DNA of 36,765 bases from an uncultured Thiodictyon sp. (GTDB taxonomy: Bacteria; Pseudomonadota; Gammaproteobacteria; Chromatiales; Chromatiaceae). A program made the position numbers and the translations under genes. The stretch is from contig NZ_CAJAXH010000136.1 in the NCBI RefSeq assembly GCF_903946935.1, forward strand, positions 1 through 36,765, in the 5' to 3' direction. Shown here piece after piece: positions 31,103 through 35,975 of the stretch (the stretch's first letter is position 1; every line of letters starts with the position of its first letter). The notes under the pieces are model-generated. The model was not told where the DNA came from, did not search any database, and worked only from the letters and a program-made list of their open reading frames with translations.

Positions 31103-31225
31103 TGAAATTTCTCCCGCAAGAGTGAAGTGGATAGGCCTGTCCTGGCGCCGCTCGGAGATTGGGCGAGTATTTCACTGAGCGGTGTCACCGAGTGGTCGGC
31201 GCTCTTCCCCTAGGATTGTTCAGGA

Positions 31226-31345
31226 TAACGGCCATGGCGCCCGCGCCATCCAGAACCATGAAAGTGGCGGGCGCCGGCCGTTCCCCCACCCCGCCCTCCC
31301 CCACGAGGGGAGAGGTGGAGCGCGCTCCCGGCGCGACTTTCACGT
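31226..31345. repeat. Left flanking element, related to 35782-35968
   Basis: Begins TAACGGCCATGGCGCCCGC, the same 19-bp terminus found at both ends of the element at 35782-35968. Its remaining ~100 bp align to the reverse complement of that element (through GGAGCGCGCTCCCGGCGCGA). It lacks the second terminus. It occupies part of the 507-bp gap before the roadblock operon; the rest of the gap holds an AT-rich promoter region. Confidence 0.8.
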
Positions 31346-31537: not shown

Positions 31538-31566
31538 CTGACAATTCGCAAATTTTGAATAATAAT
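31538..31566 (+). promoter_or_regulatory. Candidate sigma70 promoter of roadblock operon
   Basis: CTGACA (31538-31543), a 17-bp spacer and AATAAT (31561-31566) lie in a ~120-bp AT-rich patch 44 bp before the first gene. Each hexamer differs from consensus at one position and the spacing is ideal. Directly downstream is a run with two direct copies of TTTTACAAA/TTTTACAAA-like sequence (31576-31595), which could be a regulator site. Confidence 0.55.
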
Positions 31567-31609: not shown

Positions 31610-32071
31610 ATGCAACCCAAGCTGGTGCCGGACAATCTCACTGCCCCGTTGCCGGAAGACCTCGGGCAACCCGGGATGGAGCCGATTTTCTGGCAGGGCG
31701 CCGACCATAACCTGCTGGTTCCAGACTGGTATCCCCCAGGACCCATGATCGAACATTTGGCGTACAGCGTGGCGCGGACCCCGGCGGACCTGACGGCCCA
31801 TACCCGGCGGGTGCTCTTGTGTCTGAACCAAGCGGACCCGGCGGCACTCTTCGGCAGCCTCGCCGACCTGTTTATCGCGTTGGGCCAGCGGGGGGAGGCA
31901 TTGCGGCGGCGTCTCTTCGACCTGGCCCGCCCGTTACTTCCCGAGGCGCAGGCACGACCGCTCGCCGCCTGGCTCGAGCAAGGCGGTGTCGACGACCGGG
32001 TCCTCCCGGACGATACCCACGCGGTGCTGGCGGCTCGCCCCCGCGGGCGTCCACTGATCCTCGCCGATTGA
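31610..32071 (+). CDS. Hypothetical protein, first gene of roadblock/GTPase operon
   Basis: A 153-residue soluble protein that I do not recognise. The first 55 residues are Pro-rich and aromatic (EPIFWQGADHNLLVPDWYPP), and the rest is helical (TAHTRRVLLCLNQADPAALF, LADLFIALGQRGEALRRRLF). It resembles helical scaffold proteins with a short linear motif at the N-terminus, but that is only impression. An in-frame stop at 31601 fixes the reading frame's left border; no strong ribosome site is visible. It sits 44 bp after a good promoter and its stop overlaps the region where the next gene may start, so it leads the operon. Confidence 0.7.
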   Translation: MQPKLVPDNLTAPLPEDLGQPGMEPIFWQGADHNLLVPDWYPPGPMIEHLAYSVARTPADLTAHTRRVLLCLNQADPAALFGSLADLFIALGQRGEALRRRLFDLARPLLPEAQARPLAAWLEQGGVDDRVLPDDTHAVLAARPRGRPLILAD

Positions 32072-32082
32072 ACGGCTCTCCT

Positions 32083-32778
32083 GTGCCCCGTCTTGACGAG
32101 GACCTGTATCTGGGTGTGACGCCGGCCGGTGCCTACCATGCCACCGCCGCCCAGGAGCCGACGCCGATGCGCCGACTCCTGTTTAGGCTCCTCAAGGAGC
32201 GCCACACACCGCGTGTGGGGGATGTGCCATGGGGCGACTGGTTGGGGGCAGAGTCGTCCCAGTCCGCGGTCGAGCTGGTCGCGCGGATGGAGACCCTCGG
32301 CTGGCTATGGGGCCTGGAGGCGCCCGCCCACTGCCCGTCGGAGCCGCTCGAGCCGCTCTTGCCGGGGCTGCTGCCCTCCTTGAGCAGCCTGCGTCAGGCA
32401 CTGCTGGCCGACCGCCACGGTCTACAGATCGGCTGCGCCGGATTCGACGAGTCCCAGGTCCAGGGCCTCGCCGCGGTCAGCGCCGATGCGGTGGCGCTGG
32501 CGTTGCGCTGTCGCCGGCTGTTGGGCGGACTGGAGCAGGTCGGGCCCGGCGCCTGGGGCATGATCGATGCGGCCGGTCACAGCCAGATCGGCGTTTGGCC
32601 CTTGTTTCTGGGTAGCGAATGGTTCGCACTGGTCCTGGGCGGACGACCGCGCTTCAACCATCCCGATTTCCTACGCCTGGTCTGGAGGTTGTCAAGAATG
32701 GTGGGTGGGGCACCGGACGTCGTTTCCGCGTTCGGTACAACCGCGATAGCAACGAGTCCTGAAACCTATAGAGAGTAA
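32083..32778 (+). CDS. Protein with divergent roadblock-like C-terminal domain
   Basis: About 231 residues from the GTG at 32083; a TTG at 32068, overlapping the previous stop, is an alternative. The N-terminal half (MRRLLFRLLKERHTPRVGDV, VELVARMETLGWLWGLE) looks like a winged helix. The C-terminal half, LPSLSSLRQALLADRHGLQI, GCAGFDESQVQGLAAVSADA and SQIGVWPLFLGSEWFALVLG, follows the helix-strand-helix-strand pattern of roadblock/LC7 domains, including the 'LADRHGLQI' position where roadblock proteins have 'xDxxGL'. That assignment is inference. It precedes a canonical roadblock gene by six bases, so a heterodimer of the two is plausible. Confidence 0.65.
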   Translation: MPRLDEDLYLGVTPAGAYHATAAQEPTPMRRLLFRLLKERHTPRVGDVPWGDWLGAESSQSAVELVARMETLGWLWGLEAPAHCPSEPLEPLLPGLLPSLSSLRQALLADRHGLQIGCAGFDESQVQGLAAVSADAVALALRCRRLLGGLEQVGPGAWGMIDAAGHSQIGVWPLFLGSEWFALVLGGRPRFNHPDFLRLVWRLSRMVGGAPDVVSAFGTTAIATSPETYRE

Positions 32779-32784
32779 AGAAGA

Positions 32785-33147
32785 ATGCGTGACGACGTAC
32801 TCAAGTCTATTTTGAGCGAGCTCAACGGCTCATCCGCCGACATCGAGGCCTCCGCGATCGTCTCCAGCGACGGGTTGATGATGGCCTCGCTCCTGCCTGC
32901 GGGTCTGGAGGAGGACCGCATCGGCGCCATGGCGGCGGCGATGCTGGCCCTGGGCGGCCGCACCGCCGACGAGCTGGCGCGTGGACACCTGGAGCAGGTG
33001 CTCATCAAGGGCGCGAACGGCTATGTGCTGCTGACCTATGCGGGGAGCGACGCGGTGCTCGCCGTGATTGCCAAGGCGAACGCCAAGCTTGGACTGATCT
33101 TTCTCGACGTGAAGCGCGCAGCGGAAAATGTTGCCAAGATCATTTGA
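32785..33147 (+). CDS. Roadblock/LC7 domain protein (MglB-like)
   Basis: A 120-residue stand-alone roadblock protein. Recognisable parts are the N-terminal helix DDVLKSILSELNGSSADIEA, strand SAIVSSDGLMMAS, helix EEDRIGAMAAAMLALGGRTA and strands GYVLLTYAGSDAVLAVIA, ending in helix LDVKRAAENVAKII. Such proteins dimerise and act as regulators (GAP or scaffold) of small Ras-like GTPases, as MglB does for MglA. An AAAGAAG site precedes the ATG. A GTPase gene of the fitting family lies three genes downstream. A fragment of a second copy of this gene's 3' end is found at 35347-35406. Confidence 0.9.
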   Translation: MRDDVLKSILSELNGSSADIEASAIVSSDGLMMASLLPAGLEEDRIGAMAAAMLALGGRTADELARGHLEQVLIKGANGYVLLTYAGSDAVLAVIAKANAKLGLIFLDVKRAAENVAKII

Positions 33148-33165
33148 TAATCGGGAGACGCCGTC

Positions 33166-33528
33166 ATGGGTGCCTTTTTTCTGCTGCGACTCAACGACCA
33201 TATTCAATACCTGAACCGGATCAAGGCCACCTTGAACGGCACCGGCGATTTCCGCGGCGGCAGCCACCACGACTGTAAGCTGGGCAAATGGATGGACGGC
33301 GCCGGGCCGGCCGAGGCGGCGGAGGCCGGTCCGGCGGCCAAGGCCGTGTTCGACTCGCTGGCCGAGCCCCACCAGCAATTCCACGAGGCCAGCGCCAAGG
33401 CACTGGAGCTCTCGCTGGCCGGGCAGGCCAGTGAGGCCGAGGCGGAGATGACCGCCATGCACACGCTCTCCGGCGTCCTGGTCGATCGGTTACTCGAGCT
33501 GGACCGGCTGTCGGGGGCAGCCAAGTAA
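33166..33528 (+). CDS. Stand-alone CZB (chemoreceptor zinc-binding) protein
   Basis: A 120-residue protein consisting of one CZB domain. The 3His/1Cys zinc ligands are in place: His12 (LNDHIQYLNRIK), Cys37 (HDCKLGKWM), His69 and His73 (EPHQQFHEAS). CZB domains usually sit at the end of chemoreceptors or diguanylate cyclases and sense zinc or, through the Cys, hypochlorous acid. As a free domain it should work on a partner, most likely one encoded here. GGGAG precedes the ATG by a normal distance. Its stop overlaps the next ATG (TAATG). A close paralogue lies at 35422. Confidence 0.9.
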   Translation: MGAFFLLRLNDHIQYLNRIKATLNGTGDFRGGSHHDCKLGKWMDGAGPAEAAEAGPAAKAVFDSLAEPHQQFHEASAKALELSLAGQASEAEAEMTAMHTLSGVLVDRLLELDRLSGAAK

Positions 33529-34775
33529 TGCCTCCCGGAGCACCTGCCTCTGGGCGCGGCTCCGTGACCGCGGGGCCGGTTGTGGGGCCGCCGCTGCGGG
33601 TGGCCGTGGTTGGCATGGAGGTCCGCCAGGTCAAGACGCTGGAGCTGGCGTTCCAGGGACCCTGCCGCGATGCGTGCATGCTGGTCGATGAGCCGCAGGC
33701 CCAGGCCTGCATTGTGGATATGGACAGCTACCAGGCCAGCACCGCCCTGGCGGAGTTGCGCCGCCGCGACCCGCTGCGCCCCTTGATCCTGCTGTCGCTG
33801 GCACCCTTGGCGCCGGCGGTGGTCGCGTCGGACCTGGTGTTGGCAAAGCCCATCAGTCTGGATGACCTGGTCGCGCGCCTGGGCGTGCTGCGCGAGCGGG
33901 TCCGCCAGGCGGCGCTCGCCGCCGCGGCGGCCCAGCGCGAGGCGGCGACTGTGCCGCTTGCCGACGACGCTTCGGCCATGATCGTGGTTGCCAAGCGCAT
34001 CGACGATTGGGGGCGTCCGGCCGTAGCGGGGGACCCGCAGGCCCGCAGTCGCGTCGCGCGGCTCTTGGATCAGGAGCAGGCGAATGCCTTGATCGGTACC
34101 GCCCCGGATATCGATCCGAGCGATCCGCACCAGTTAGTCAAGGCCTATTACGACCCCAGCCGCTTCCTGCAAAGTATTGTGATTGCCGCCCGGGATTCGG
34201 CCCACGCGCGCGGCCAAGGGGTCCGCATCCAGGGACCCTGGCCCGAGATCGTACTGGACCCGCTCCGCGGGCTGGCCCGGATCGCCGACGCGGACCACCG
34301 CCTGCGTCCTTACGGCCTCCAGCCCGCGGCGCTGCAGCAGAGCCGTTTGGAGTACATTGAGCGGCTGGTCTTGCTGCACGGTCAATTCCGCACCGTCGCA
34401 TTGGACGCATTGATCTGGAAGCTGGCCCTCTGGGCGGCCCGGGGTCGGCTGCCCCTGGACACACCGGTGGACGTACCGGTGCAGTTGCAGCGTTGGCCCA
34501 ACTTCACCCGGCTGACGCTGGCACCGGGCGCCATGAGCATCGCCGCGCTCTGGGCGCGCGAGCCCCATAGCCTGATCCGTACCGCCGAGGTGCTGAACCT
34601 CCCACAGCGATCCGTATTCGCCTTCTACAGCGCCGCCGCCGCATTGGGGCTGGCGCAATGCCGTGCGGACGCTGCACCGAAAGCGCTCGCATCCAACCGC
34701 CCGCTCGATTTTGCGGCCGATGCGCGGCGCGGGCTCCTGGGTCGTATCATGAAACGCCTAAACGTTTTTTTCTGA
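33528..34775 (+). CDS. Degenerate receiver-like protein with helical C-terminus
   Basis: A 415-residue protein. Residues about 22-125 look like a response-regulator receiver: strand RVAVVGME (without the acidic pair), ACIVDMDSY with Asp64 in the phospho-acceptor position, LILLSL with Ser90, and VLAKPIS with Lys107. Missing acidic residues suggest that it is not phosphorylated normally. Residues about 185-290 are unassigned (HQLVKAYYDPSRFLQSIVIA). The C-terminus, WPNFTRLTLAPGAMSIAALW and LPQRSVFAFYSAAAALGLAQ, looks like a winged helix and a conserved ending. The start codon overlaps the CZB stop by one base. I infer an adaptor that joins CZB and GTPase modules. Confidence 0.75.
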   Translation: MPPGAPASGRGSVTAGPVVGPPLRVAVVGMEVRQVKTLELAFQGPCRDACMLVDEPQAQACIVDMDSYQASTALAELRRRDPLRPLILLSLAPLAPAVVASDLVLAKPISLDDLVARLGVLRERVRQAALAAAAAQREAATVPLADDASAMIVVAKRIDDWGRPAVAGDPQARSRVARLLDQEQANALIGTAPDIDPSDPHQLVKAYYDPSRFLQSIVIAARDSAHARGQGVRIQGPWPEIVLDPLRGLARIADADHRLRPYGLQPAALQQSRLEYIERLVLLHGQFRTVALDALIWKLALWAARGRLPLDTPVDVPVQLQRWPNFTRLTLAPGAMSIAALWAREPHSLIRTAEVLNLPQRSVFAFYSAAAALGLAQCRADAAPKALASNRPLDFAADARRGLLGRIMKRLNVFF

Positions 34776-34787
34776 GGAGCCCCGGCC

Positions 34788-35336
34788 ATGTCCCATCACA
34801 AGATCGTTTTTTCCGGGCCGGTGGGGGCCGGTAAGACCGCCGCCATCGCGGCGGTGAGCGATACGCCGCCGATCAGCACCGAGGCCAGGGCCAGCGATGC
34901 CACCCGCGAGCTCAAGTCGGCGACCACCGTTGCCATGGACTACGGCCTGATCCGTCTCGACGGCGGCGAGCAGATCCATCTCTACGGCACGCCCGGCCAG
35001 GAGCGTTTCAACTTCATGTGGCAAATCCTGAGCGAAGGTGCCCTGGGTGTGGTGCTGCTGGTAGCCAACCACCGGCCGCAGCCGCTCGCCGATCTGCGCT
35101 ACTACCTCGACGCCTTTCGGCCCTTCATCGACCAGACGCGACTCGCGGTGGGGGTGACCTACATGGACCAGAGTGCGGAGCCGCGGCTGGAGGACTACCA
35201 CCGCACACTCGCCGATGCGGGGATGAAGGCCCCGGTGTTCGAGGTCGACGCCCGCGAGCGCCGCGACGTGGCGCTACTCGTCCAGGCACTGTTGCTGTCA
35301 TTGGACCCTGGGGTGGATACCGGTGTGGCGATCTGA
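34788..35336 (+). CDS. Small Ras-like GTPase (COG2229/MglA-related)
   Basis: A 182-residue GTPase. P-loop GPVGAGKT at 10-17, a switch I Thr in KSATTVAMDYG (about 45-53), switch II GTPGQERF at 67-74, and VGVTYMD in the place of the NKxD guanine motif (about 121-127), as in the COG2229 family of prokaryotic Rab-like GTPases that pair with roadblock proteins. It should cycle between GTP and GDP forms under control of the upstream roadblock protein(s). It follows the receiver-like gene by 12 bases with GAGGAG just before the ATG. Output is unknown; relatives control polarity, motility or pili. Confidence 0.88.
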   Translation: MSHHKIVFSGPVGAGKTAAIAAVSDTPPISTEARASDATRELKSATTVAMDYGLIRLDGGEQIHLYGTPGQERFNFMWQILSEGALGVVLLVANHRPQPLADLRYYLDAFRPFIDQTRLAVGVTYMDQSAEPRLEDYHRTLADAGMKAPVFEVDARERRDVALLVQALLLSLDPGVDTGVAI

Positions 35337-35346
35337 TGCGAGGCCC

Positions 35347-35406
35347 GGACTGATTGTTCTCGACGCAAGGCGCGCAGCGCAAATCGCTGCCAAGATGGTT
35401 CGATAA
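35347..35406 (+). pseudogene. 3' remnant of a second roadblock gene
   Basis: This stretch translates GLIVLDARRAAQIAAKMVR followed by a stop, clearly the same as the end of the roadblock protein at 33091-33147 (GLIFLDVKRAAENVAKII). It lies directly before the second CZB gene, exactly as the roadblock gene end lies before the first one. It has no start and is a by-product of the duplication described below. Confidence 0.9.
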
Positions 35407-35421
35407 TTGGGAGACGCCGCC

Positions 35422-35784
35422 ATGGGTGCCTTTTTTCTGCACCGACTCAATGATCATCTTCAGTACCTGAATCGGATCAAGGCCACCTTGAGCGGCACCG
35501 GCGATTTCCGCGGCACTGGCCATCGCGACTGTAAGCTGGGCAAATGGATGGACACCGCCGGACCGGCCGAGGCGGCCGAGGTCGGCCGGGAGGCGACGGC
35601 CGTGTTCGACTCGCTGGCCGAGCCCCACCAACAGTTCCATGAGGCCAGTGCCAAGGCGTTGGAACTTGCGCTGGCCGGGGAGGCCAGCGCGGCCGAGGAG
35701 GAGATTACCGCCATGTATAGGCTCTCCGCCCTCCTGGTCGATCGGTTGCTGGAGCTGGACCGGTTGTCGGGGTCAGCCAAGTAA
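35422..35784 (+). CDS. Second stand-alone CZB protein (paralogue)
   Basis: A 120-residue paralogue of the CZB protein at 33166, of equal length and with about 80 percent or more of positions the same by eye. Ligands His12, Cys37, His69 and His73 are kept. Differences cluster at residues 7, 13, 32-35 and 53-58 and near 100-107. The upstream GGGAGACGCCGCC including ribosome site was duplicated with it, so it can be translated. It closes the operon; its TAA is also the first base triplet of the downstream repeat terminus. Both copies intact suggests selection rather than decay. Confidence 0.88.
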   Translation: MGAFFLHRLNDHLQYLNRIKATLSGTGDFRGTGHRDCKLGKWMDTAGPAEAAEVGREATAVFDSLAEPHQQFHEASAKALELALAGEASAAEEEITAMYRLSALLVDRLLELDRLSGSAK

Positions 35785-35968
35785 CGGCCATGGCGCCCGC
35801 CTTACCTCGAACGATGAACGTCCGCCGTGGAAGCGGCTTTACCGTGAAAGTCGCGCCGGGAGCGCGCTCCAATGCTCCCTCCCCTATTGGGGGGAGAGTG
35901 GGGAGGGGCGACGGCCAAGGCGCCCGCCACGTTCATCGTTCGGAGTGGTGCGGGCGCCATGGCCGTTA
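35782..35968. repeat. 187-bp element with perfect 19-bp terminal inverted repeats
   Basis: TAACGGCCATGGCGCCCGC at the left end is exactly complementary to the right end. Subterminal CGAACGATGAACGT is also repeated inverted. The interior includes GTGAAAGTCGCGCCGGGAGC, found inverted at 31226-31345. No coding capacity; MITE-like. The left terminus uses the stop codon of the CZB gene. Confidence 0.88.
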
Positions 35969-35975
35969 GCCGCGA

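Follow-up and report, generated by a model that had tools for sequence, protein, structure and literature searches.

The Group 3 MglA systems were defined from genome context by Wuichet and Sogaard-Andersen 2014 (PMC4316618). In brief, their small GTPases carry the motifs GTPGQ and DAR, often lack the Lys of G4, and are accompanied by one or two MglB proteins and a receiver-like protein for which a winged-helix C-terminus was predicted (PMC4316618). Here we describe a seven-gene operon, genes A to G, at positions 31610-35784 of the window, a 36,765 nt stretch of DNA from an uncultured Thiodictyon sp. (assembly GCF_903946935.1, contig NZ_CAJAXH010000136.1) that is one whole contig (G000:C136) within a 6.0 Mb genome. 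By motifs and gene content, the E-F-B-C core of the operon fits the Group 3 MglA systems. The original prediction made for this DNA held that no described system joins these parts. For the core this does not stand, as it is of an already known, little-studied kind; the free sensors attached to it are the new part. We suggest that the operon probably encodes a Group 3-kind GTPase system (F, C, B, the pseudo-receiver E, and A) into which free cytosolic sensor domains are plugged.

All seven open reading frames were confirmed and are co-directional on the plus strand, in agreement with the seven packed genes first predicted. With gene B starting at GTG 32083, a start inferred from homologues, the intergenic gaps are 11 bp (A-B), 6 bp (B-C), 18 bp (C-D), -1 bp (D-E), 12 bp (E-F) and 85 bp (F-G). 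The features are as follows.

31538..31566, plus strand: sigma-70-like promoter match upstream of gene A; weak
31610..32071, plus strand: gene A, 153-residue helical protein
32083..32778, plus strand: gene B, 231 residues from an inferred GTG start, second and divergent roadblock (MglB-like) protein, extended at the N-terminus
32785..33147, plus strand: gene C, canonical roadblock/MglB protein, Asp-Gly pair kept
33166..33528, plus strand: gene D, free-standing CZB zinc-binding domain protein, 3His/1Cys intact
33528..34775, plus strand: gene E, 415 residues, receiver-like domain (about 20-140) and conserved C-terminal region
34788..35336, plus strand: gene F, small GTPase of the Group 3 MglA type (GPVGAGKT, TT, GTPGQ, TYMD, DAR)
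35338..35421, plus strand: relic of the 3' end of roadblock gene C with spacer, most likely carried along by a duplication
35422..35784, plus strand: gene G, second free-standing CZB protein, most likely a duplicate of D

With Group 3 the operon shares the GTPase motifs, the MglB proteins and a protein with a receiver-like N-terminus; the available part of the Group 3 account names no CZB, PAS, globin or PhnD-like gene, nor gene A (PMC4316618). The MglA/MglB/RomR polarity module of Myxococcus xanthus (Group 1) likewise comprises a small GTPase, a roadblock GTPase-activating protein (GAP) and a receiver-domain partner, but it has other GTPase motifs and a link to the Frz chemosensory system, and its mglA is not near the partner genes (PMC4316618). 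The actinobacterial conservons cvnABCD (Group 2) also combine a sensor, a roadblock protein and a GTPase in one operon. Their sensor is the histidine kinase CvnA (PMC4316618), whereas Pfam found no kinase family in the seven proteins of the operon described here. CZB-regulated chemoreceptors and diguanylate cyclases (TlpD, DgcZ) have the same 3His/1Cys zinc site and CxLGxW core; here, in contrast, the CZB domain is the whole protein and is tied by gene order to a GTPase. CZB-only sequences make up 27.1% of CZB sequences, and no partner is named for them in the available part of that study (PMC8262984). Among the papers listed in a literature search, which covered titles and abstract openings and few subscription journals, there was no report joining CZB, an Aer-type PAS or protoglobin to a roadblock/GTPase operon.

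The conserved core

We used a sample of 147 genomes from the order, drawn once, and a sample of 369 genomes from the class. Loci were taken from 40 regions around F in the order sample, 80 in species genomes and five more, giving 125. F was present in 123 of these, and dropping four duplicates by GTPase sequence left 119 non-redundant loci. Another 26 were dropped for short flanks, the requirement being over 2.5 kb on the downstream side and over 0.8 kb on the upstream side, which left 93. The species-genome set was the best 80 of at least 589 relatives, so that frequencies in the 93 loci describe close relatives and not all of Group 3. Genes in the loci were labelled by profiles built from the window, the genes of relatives being simple open reading frame calls; PAS matches in proteins longer than 300 residues were ignored in the locus counts.

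E was found in 41 genomes of the order sample and F in 37. The operon goes beyond a chance arrangement, since E accompanies F in 91 of the 93 loci; C is present in 82, B in 79 and A in 77. The commonest gene order is A-E-F-B-C-sensor. The neighbourhood that the original prediction proposed to look for in relatives is thus conserved, though the usual order differs from the A-B-C-D-E-F-G of the window. The order A-B-C-D-E-F occurs in the window and its two closest loci, with C not found in one of these. In one of two operon copies in a same-genus relative (L063:9198-10522), C was not found between B and the CZB gene, which lie 147 nt apart. Record titles of the relatives include Methylomonas, Methylobacter, Thiothrix, Leucothrix, Sphaerotilus, Zoogloea, Neisseria, Snodgrassella and Thiodiazotropha, and the 80 named relatives, which range over beta- and gamma-proteobacteria, are in keeping with Group 3.

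F is a P-loop GTPase by Pfam. Among 119 sequences including that of the window, GTPGQ is found in 113, TT in 116 and DAR in 111. In the F of the window, Thr (TT) replaces the arginine finger in G2, G3 reads GTPGQ, G4, without Lys, reads TYMD, and G5 reads DAR. The two MglB homologues per GTPase, one clear (C) and one weaker (B), fall within the one or two of Group 3, and E provides the conserved protein with a receiver-like N-terminus. C is a canonical roadblock protein, as first predicted, matching Robl_LC7 in Pfam (7e-16) and a roadblock protein in the PDB (5e-25); its Asp-Gly pair is present in at least 92 of 98 sequences. The second protein, B, had been called roadblock-like. Its Pfam match to Robl_LC7 is weak and under the cut-off (0.0058), but when B and its relatives are combined in a profile, this matches roadblock structures (8e-4), which supports that assignment.

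Neither A nor E matches a Pfam family. The receiver-like domain of E aligns to receivers. Of 115 sequences, 105 have the phospho-acceptor Asp (D64) and 105 the Lys (K107); the Asp, Ser/Thr and Lys positions are kept in the domain, and the window's E has Asp, Ser and Lys. The acidic pair after strand 1 is absent, the window having G29-M30-E31 there; this placement after strand 23-28 was taken from the predicted model and judged by eye. Position 29 is Asp or Glu in 12 of 115 sequences and position 31 in 65 of 115, and position 30 has no acidic residue among the 113 listed. Because the acidic pair is absent, phosphorylation of the domain is unlikely. The claim that E is a receiver lacking acidic residues is therefore too broad in general, given D64, but it does apply to the pair after strand 1. 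The profiles of E and B have no similarity to each other.

The relatives of A are mostly 220-310 residues long, with about 480-560 in Neisseriaceae and 147-182 in a few. With 153 residues, A is about 100 residues shorter than most of them and is missing the weakly TPR-like second half; TPR_14 scored under the cut-off in four of five A relatives scanned. A short A is also found in both operon copies of the same-genus relative. The predicted model of A is helical, with a mean predicted local distance difference test (pLDDT) score of 75, and its fold gave no confident match in Foldseek (best E 0.66).

Free-standing sensors beside the core

D and G are both CZB proteins by Pfam (4.8e-13 and 1.2e-11, over the cut-off), which bears out the two free CZB proteins of the original prediction. 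A CZB profile searched against PDB sequences gave no CZB match at E up to 1, so the identification rests on Pfam and the ligands. The zinc ligands H12, C37, H69 and H73 (3His/1Cys) are present in all 25 aligned CZBs, including D and G and counting both CZBs of a gammaproteobacterial locus, L158. Within its own genome, D as a query retrieves itself and G; three matches in all come from the CZB family model. The operon-type CZBs form a distinct family, with 23 matches of at least 141 bits in the 147 genomes and the next CZB at 54 bits. Of these copies 21 adjoin the GTPase. At genome level, the GTPase is present in 20 of the 21 genomes that carry this CZB family, against 37 of all 147 (hypergeometric 1e-13, uncorrected for kinship). 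On the GTPase tree, CZB appears in five separate groups with 7 changes; support is weak, also for deep branches, and 49 of 116 inner branches are open. For this tree L102 was left out and the over-long GTPase frames of L071 and L075 were trimmed. The original prediction had grouped these parts together, and we find a conserved module in which the free CZB protein is co-inherited with the GTPase and has an intact zinc site.

The two CZB genes of the window lie in a duplicated segment of 447 nt (33082-33528 and 35338-35784, 85% identity), and the D and G proteins are 83% identical. The segment takes in the final 66 nt of roadblock gene C, and for this reason G is most likely a copy of D made by segmental duplication. 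A duplicated segment before the last gene had been noted from the start, and it indeed carries the 3' end of C. Locus L158 has the order C-CZB-E-F-CZB, like the window; its two CZBs are only 53% identical, so this pair is older or independent.

Three other families occur at related operons. Across the 93 loci, PhnD-like genes are present in 45, PAS in 43, CZB in 19 and globins in 12. At least one of the four families is found in 64 loci, one of which (L136) is counted only via a longer PhnD-like frame upstream of A. The profile of the lone PAS proteins matches the PAS structure of the Aer aerotaxis receptor over 126 residues (2.7e-44). In the sister operons, and not in that of the window, this PAS is a free protein mostly beside a roadblock gene; with 158 residues it has no room for the HAMP or methyl-accepting chemotaxis protein (MCP) parts of Aer. 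The globins match, by profile, protoglobin and globin-coupled sensors (2e-25). In the PhnD-like (Phosphonate-bd) proteins the domain is mostly right at the start and no signal peptide is evident by eye, so they look cytosolic. The PhnD-like family is found in 18 of the 147 genomes, all 18 with the GTPase (hypergeometric 3e-13), and the protoglobin type in eight, all eight with the GTPase (9e-6), genomes not being independent in either test. All eight protoglobin genes adjoin the GTPase. In L080 (6587-7699 and 13176-15505), L081 and L153, which have CZB and PAS, each of two further proteins has a PilJ N-terminal domain, and an HD_5-domain gene is present as well; the Pfam assignment was made for L080, and L081 and L153 follow by similarity.

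The sensors have a recurrent place. Of 23 CZB genes in the loci of relatives, 18 stand directly after a roadblock gene, five after the GTPase and none after E. PAS genes directly follow C in 42 of 51 cases, while globins follow B in 11 of 14 and C in the other three. As most sensors directly follow a roadblock gene, gene order points to the roadblock protein as the sensor partner, rather than the receiver-like E, which was the adaptor in the original prediction. A roadblock-CZB gene pair also exists without a nearby GTPase, which fits this pairing. The locus in question is in G220, from another family of the class (L194:7664-9954), where an unknown 490-residue protein, a roadblock protein and a CZB protein are encoded in a row and no GTPase was found nearby.

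Proposed mechanism, output and alternatives

From gene order and co-inheritance we infer that the sensors act on the roadblock/GTPase switch. Here the sensor would be the zinc-site CZB protein, present twice after the duplication; in relatives it would be an Aer-type PAS together with a PhnD-like protein, or a protoglobin. The sensor would bind either a roadblock protein (the GAP or co-GAP) or the GTPase, and zinc loss or oxidant action at the sensor would shift the GTP/GDP state of the GTPase. E may be a phosphorylation-independent partner or output, and the pathway may end in type IV pilus or pole behaviour. Tentatively, and with less confidence than for the plugged-in sensors as such, we propose a kinase-free architecture in which separate small CZB, Aer-type PAS, protoglobin and cytosolic PhnD-like proteins would act directly on roadblock GAPs and so control the state of a Ras-like GTPase. 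The conserved core would be common to beta- and gamma-proteobacteria and the sensors on it exchangeable, with type IV pili perhaps steered by redox or oxygen.

To our knowledge, no input has been described for Group 3 MglA systems. Relatives of the sensors respond to flavin redox state and oxygen. Soluble sensors whose relatives have known ligands (zinc/oxidant, flavin redox, oxygen), standing at a recurrent place in the operon, would offer a direct and testable Group 3 input. They would also provide a partner for some CZB-only proteins and, if the proposal is true, a route for signals into a GTPase that needs neither a histidine kinase nor an MCP array.

Several observations weigh against sensors plugged into the GTPase switch. 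CZB is present in only 19 of the 93 loci and none of the four families in 29, so the sensors are optional. CZB domains are generally common in the order (123 of 147 genomes). Individual copies stand apart from the GTPase: the CZB of G064 adjoins a UDP-N-acetylglucosamine epimerase gene, that of G084 is at the end of a 7.7 kb contig in a genome where no GTPase was found, and PhnD-like genes are on contigs without the GTPase in G025, G027, G033 and G122. The CZB family is rare in the class sample, with five of 369 genomes at 1e-25, two of which (the own genome and G003) are also in the order sample. The three class-only genomes are G220, with its roadblock-CZB pair, G221, with an unlinked CZB, and G322, where one CZB is unlinked on a short contig and the other lies between C and E with no GTPase found within 9 kb. 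The correlation of CZB and GTPase distances (r 0.89, 0 of 2000 permutations, with both L158 CZBs counted and G omitted) counts in favour of the link, yet a history shared by the species would produce it too. As for type IV pili, their marker pilT is found in 145 of the 147 genomes; being near universal, it is uninformative on output and cannot support a pilus link.

Two leads hint at the output, and neither is decisive. A FimV/HubP-like polar landmark gene lies directly downstream of C in four of five loci scanned with NCBIfam; L157 scores over both cut-offs, and L143, L151 and L172 over the C-terminal one, while the downstream protein of L138 gave no NCBIfam match. The four loci belong to records titled Thiotrichaceae and Leucothrix and are without the four sensors, and in L172 the FimV/HubP-like gene and C share a few bases. 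In L151 it is followed by a gene of the DHDPS family. Among nine downstream proteins of sensor-less loci, which include the five scanned with NCBIfam, Pfam gave one SRP54-type GTPase and two outer membrane efflux proteins, which we take as unrelated. The other lead comes from Snodgrassella, where, in the available part of the report, mglA is classed as group 3, an orphan roadblock protein was mutated during host passage, and the mutant had altered spreading that the authors ascribe to type IV pili (PMC11112851).

The operon could instead be mainly a transcription switch, with E as a pseudo-response regulator whose C-terminal part binds DNA, the state of the GTPase gating E and the sensors feeding in. 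Transcription control was suggested for the receiver-like/winged-helix protein of Group 3 (PMC4316618), and the predicted model of E has three helices and short strands at residues 318-378. The fold search of E spanned residues 20-144 only, so that the C-terminal half was barely covered, and the FimV/HubP neighbours hint at the cell pole instead. We also know of no DNA target or regulon for E, and on balance we consider a transcription switch somewhat unlikely.

Still less probable, in our opinion, is that the free CZB proteins serve in zinc buffering or redox protection, being co-expressed with the GTPase without signalling to it. The CZB protein DgcZ does hold zinc with subfemtomolar affinity, according to the available part of the source (PMC8262984), but other loci replace or supplement CZB at a similar place with an Aer-type PAS, a protoglobin or a PhnD-like protein, and what these families share is sensing, not zinc storage. 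That the CZB genes owe their place to chance, through repeats and recombination, we regard as very improbable. The flanking palindromic repeat, of which the genome has at least 40 copies, and the origin of one CZB by segmental duplication would suit such a history; CZB nevertheless follows the roadblock gene or the GTPase in 23 of 23 cases in GTPase loci, appears in five separate groups of the GTPase tree and co-occurs with the GTPase in 20 of 21 genomes.

Flanking sequences and variant loci

The promoter match upstream of gene A is one found in 5 kb, with 0.9 expected by chance. An Rfam scan of the window gave no match at gathering scores. A defence system was considered and rejected, a PADLOC search at 1e-3 having given no match for any of the seven proteins. 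A palindromic intergenic repeat stands on either side of the operon, at 31223-31344 and 35782-35975, in copies inverted relative to each other. The genome contains 39 or more other long stretches, of about 130 nt, that match the downstream copy. In locus L090 (9382-11172), the GTPase and roadblock genes are separated by two others, one coding for a fusion of an ABC ATPase with a dual-specificity phosphatase-like domain and one for an unknown 133-residue protein. Frames of similar size and place are found in L164, L168 and L181, the domain assignment being that of L090.

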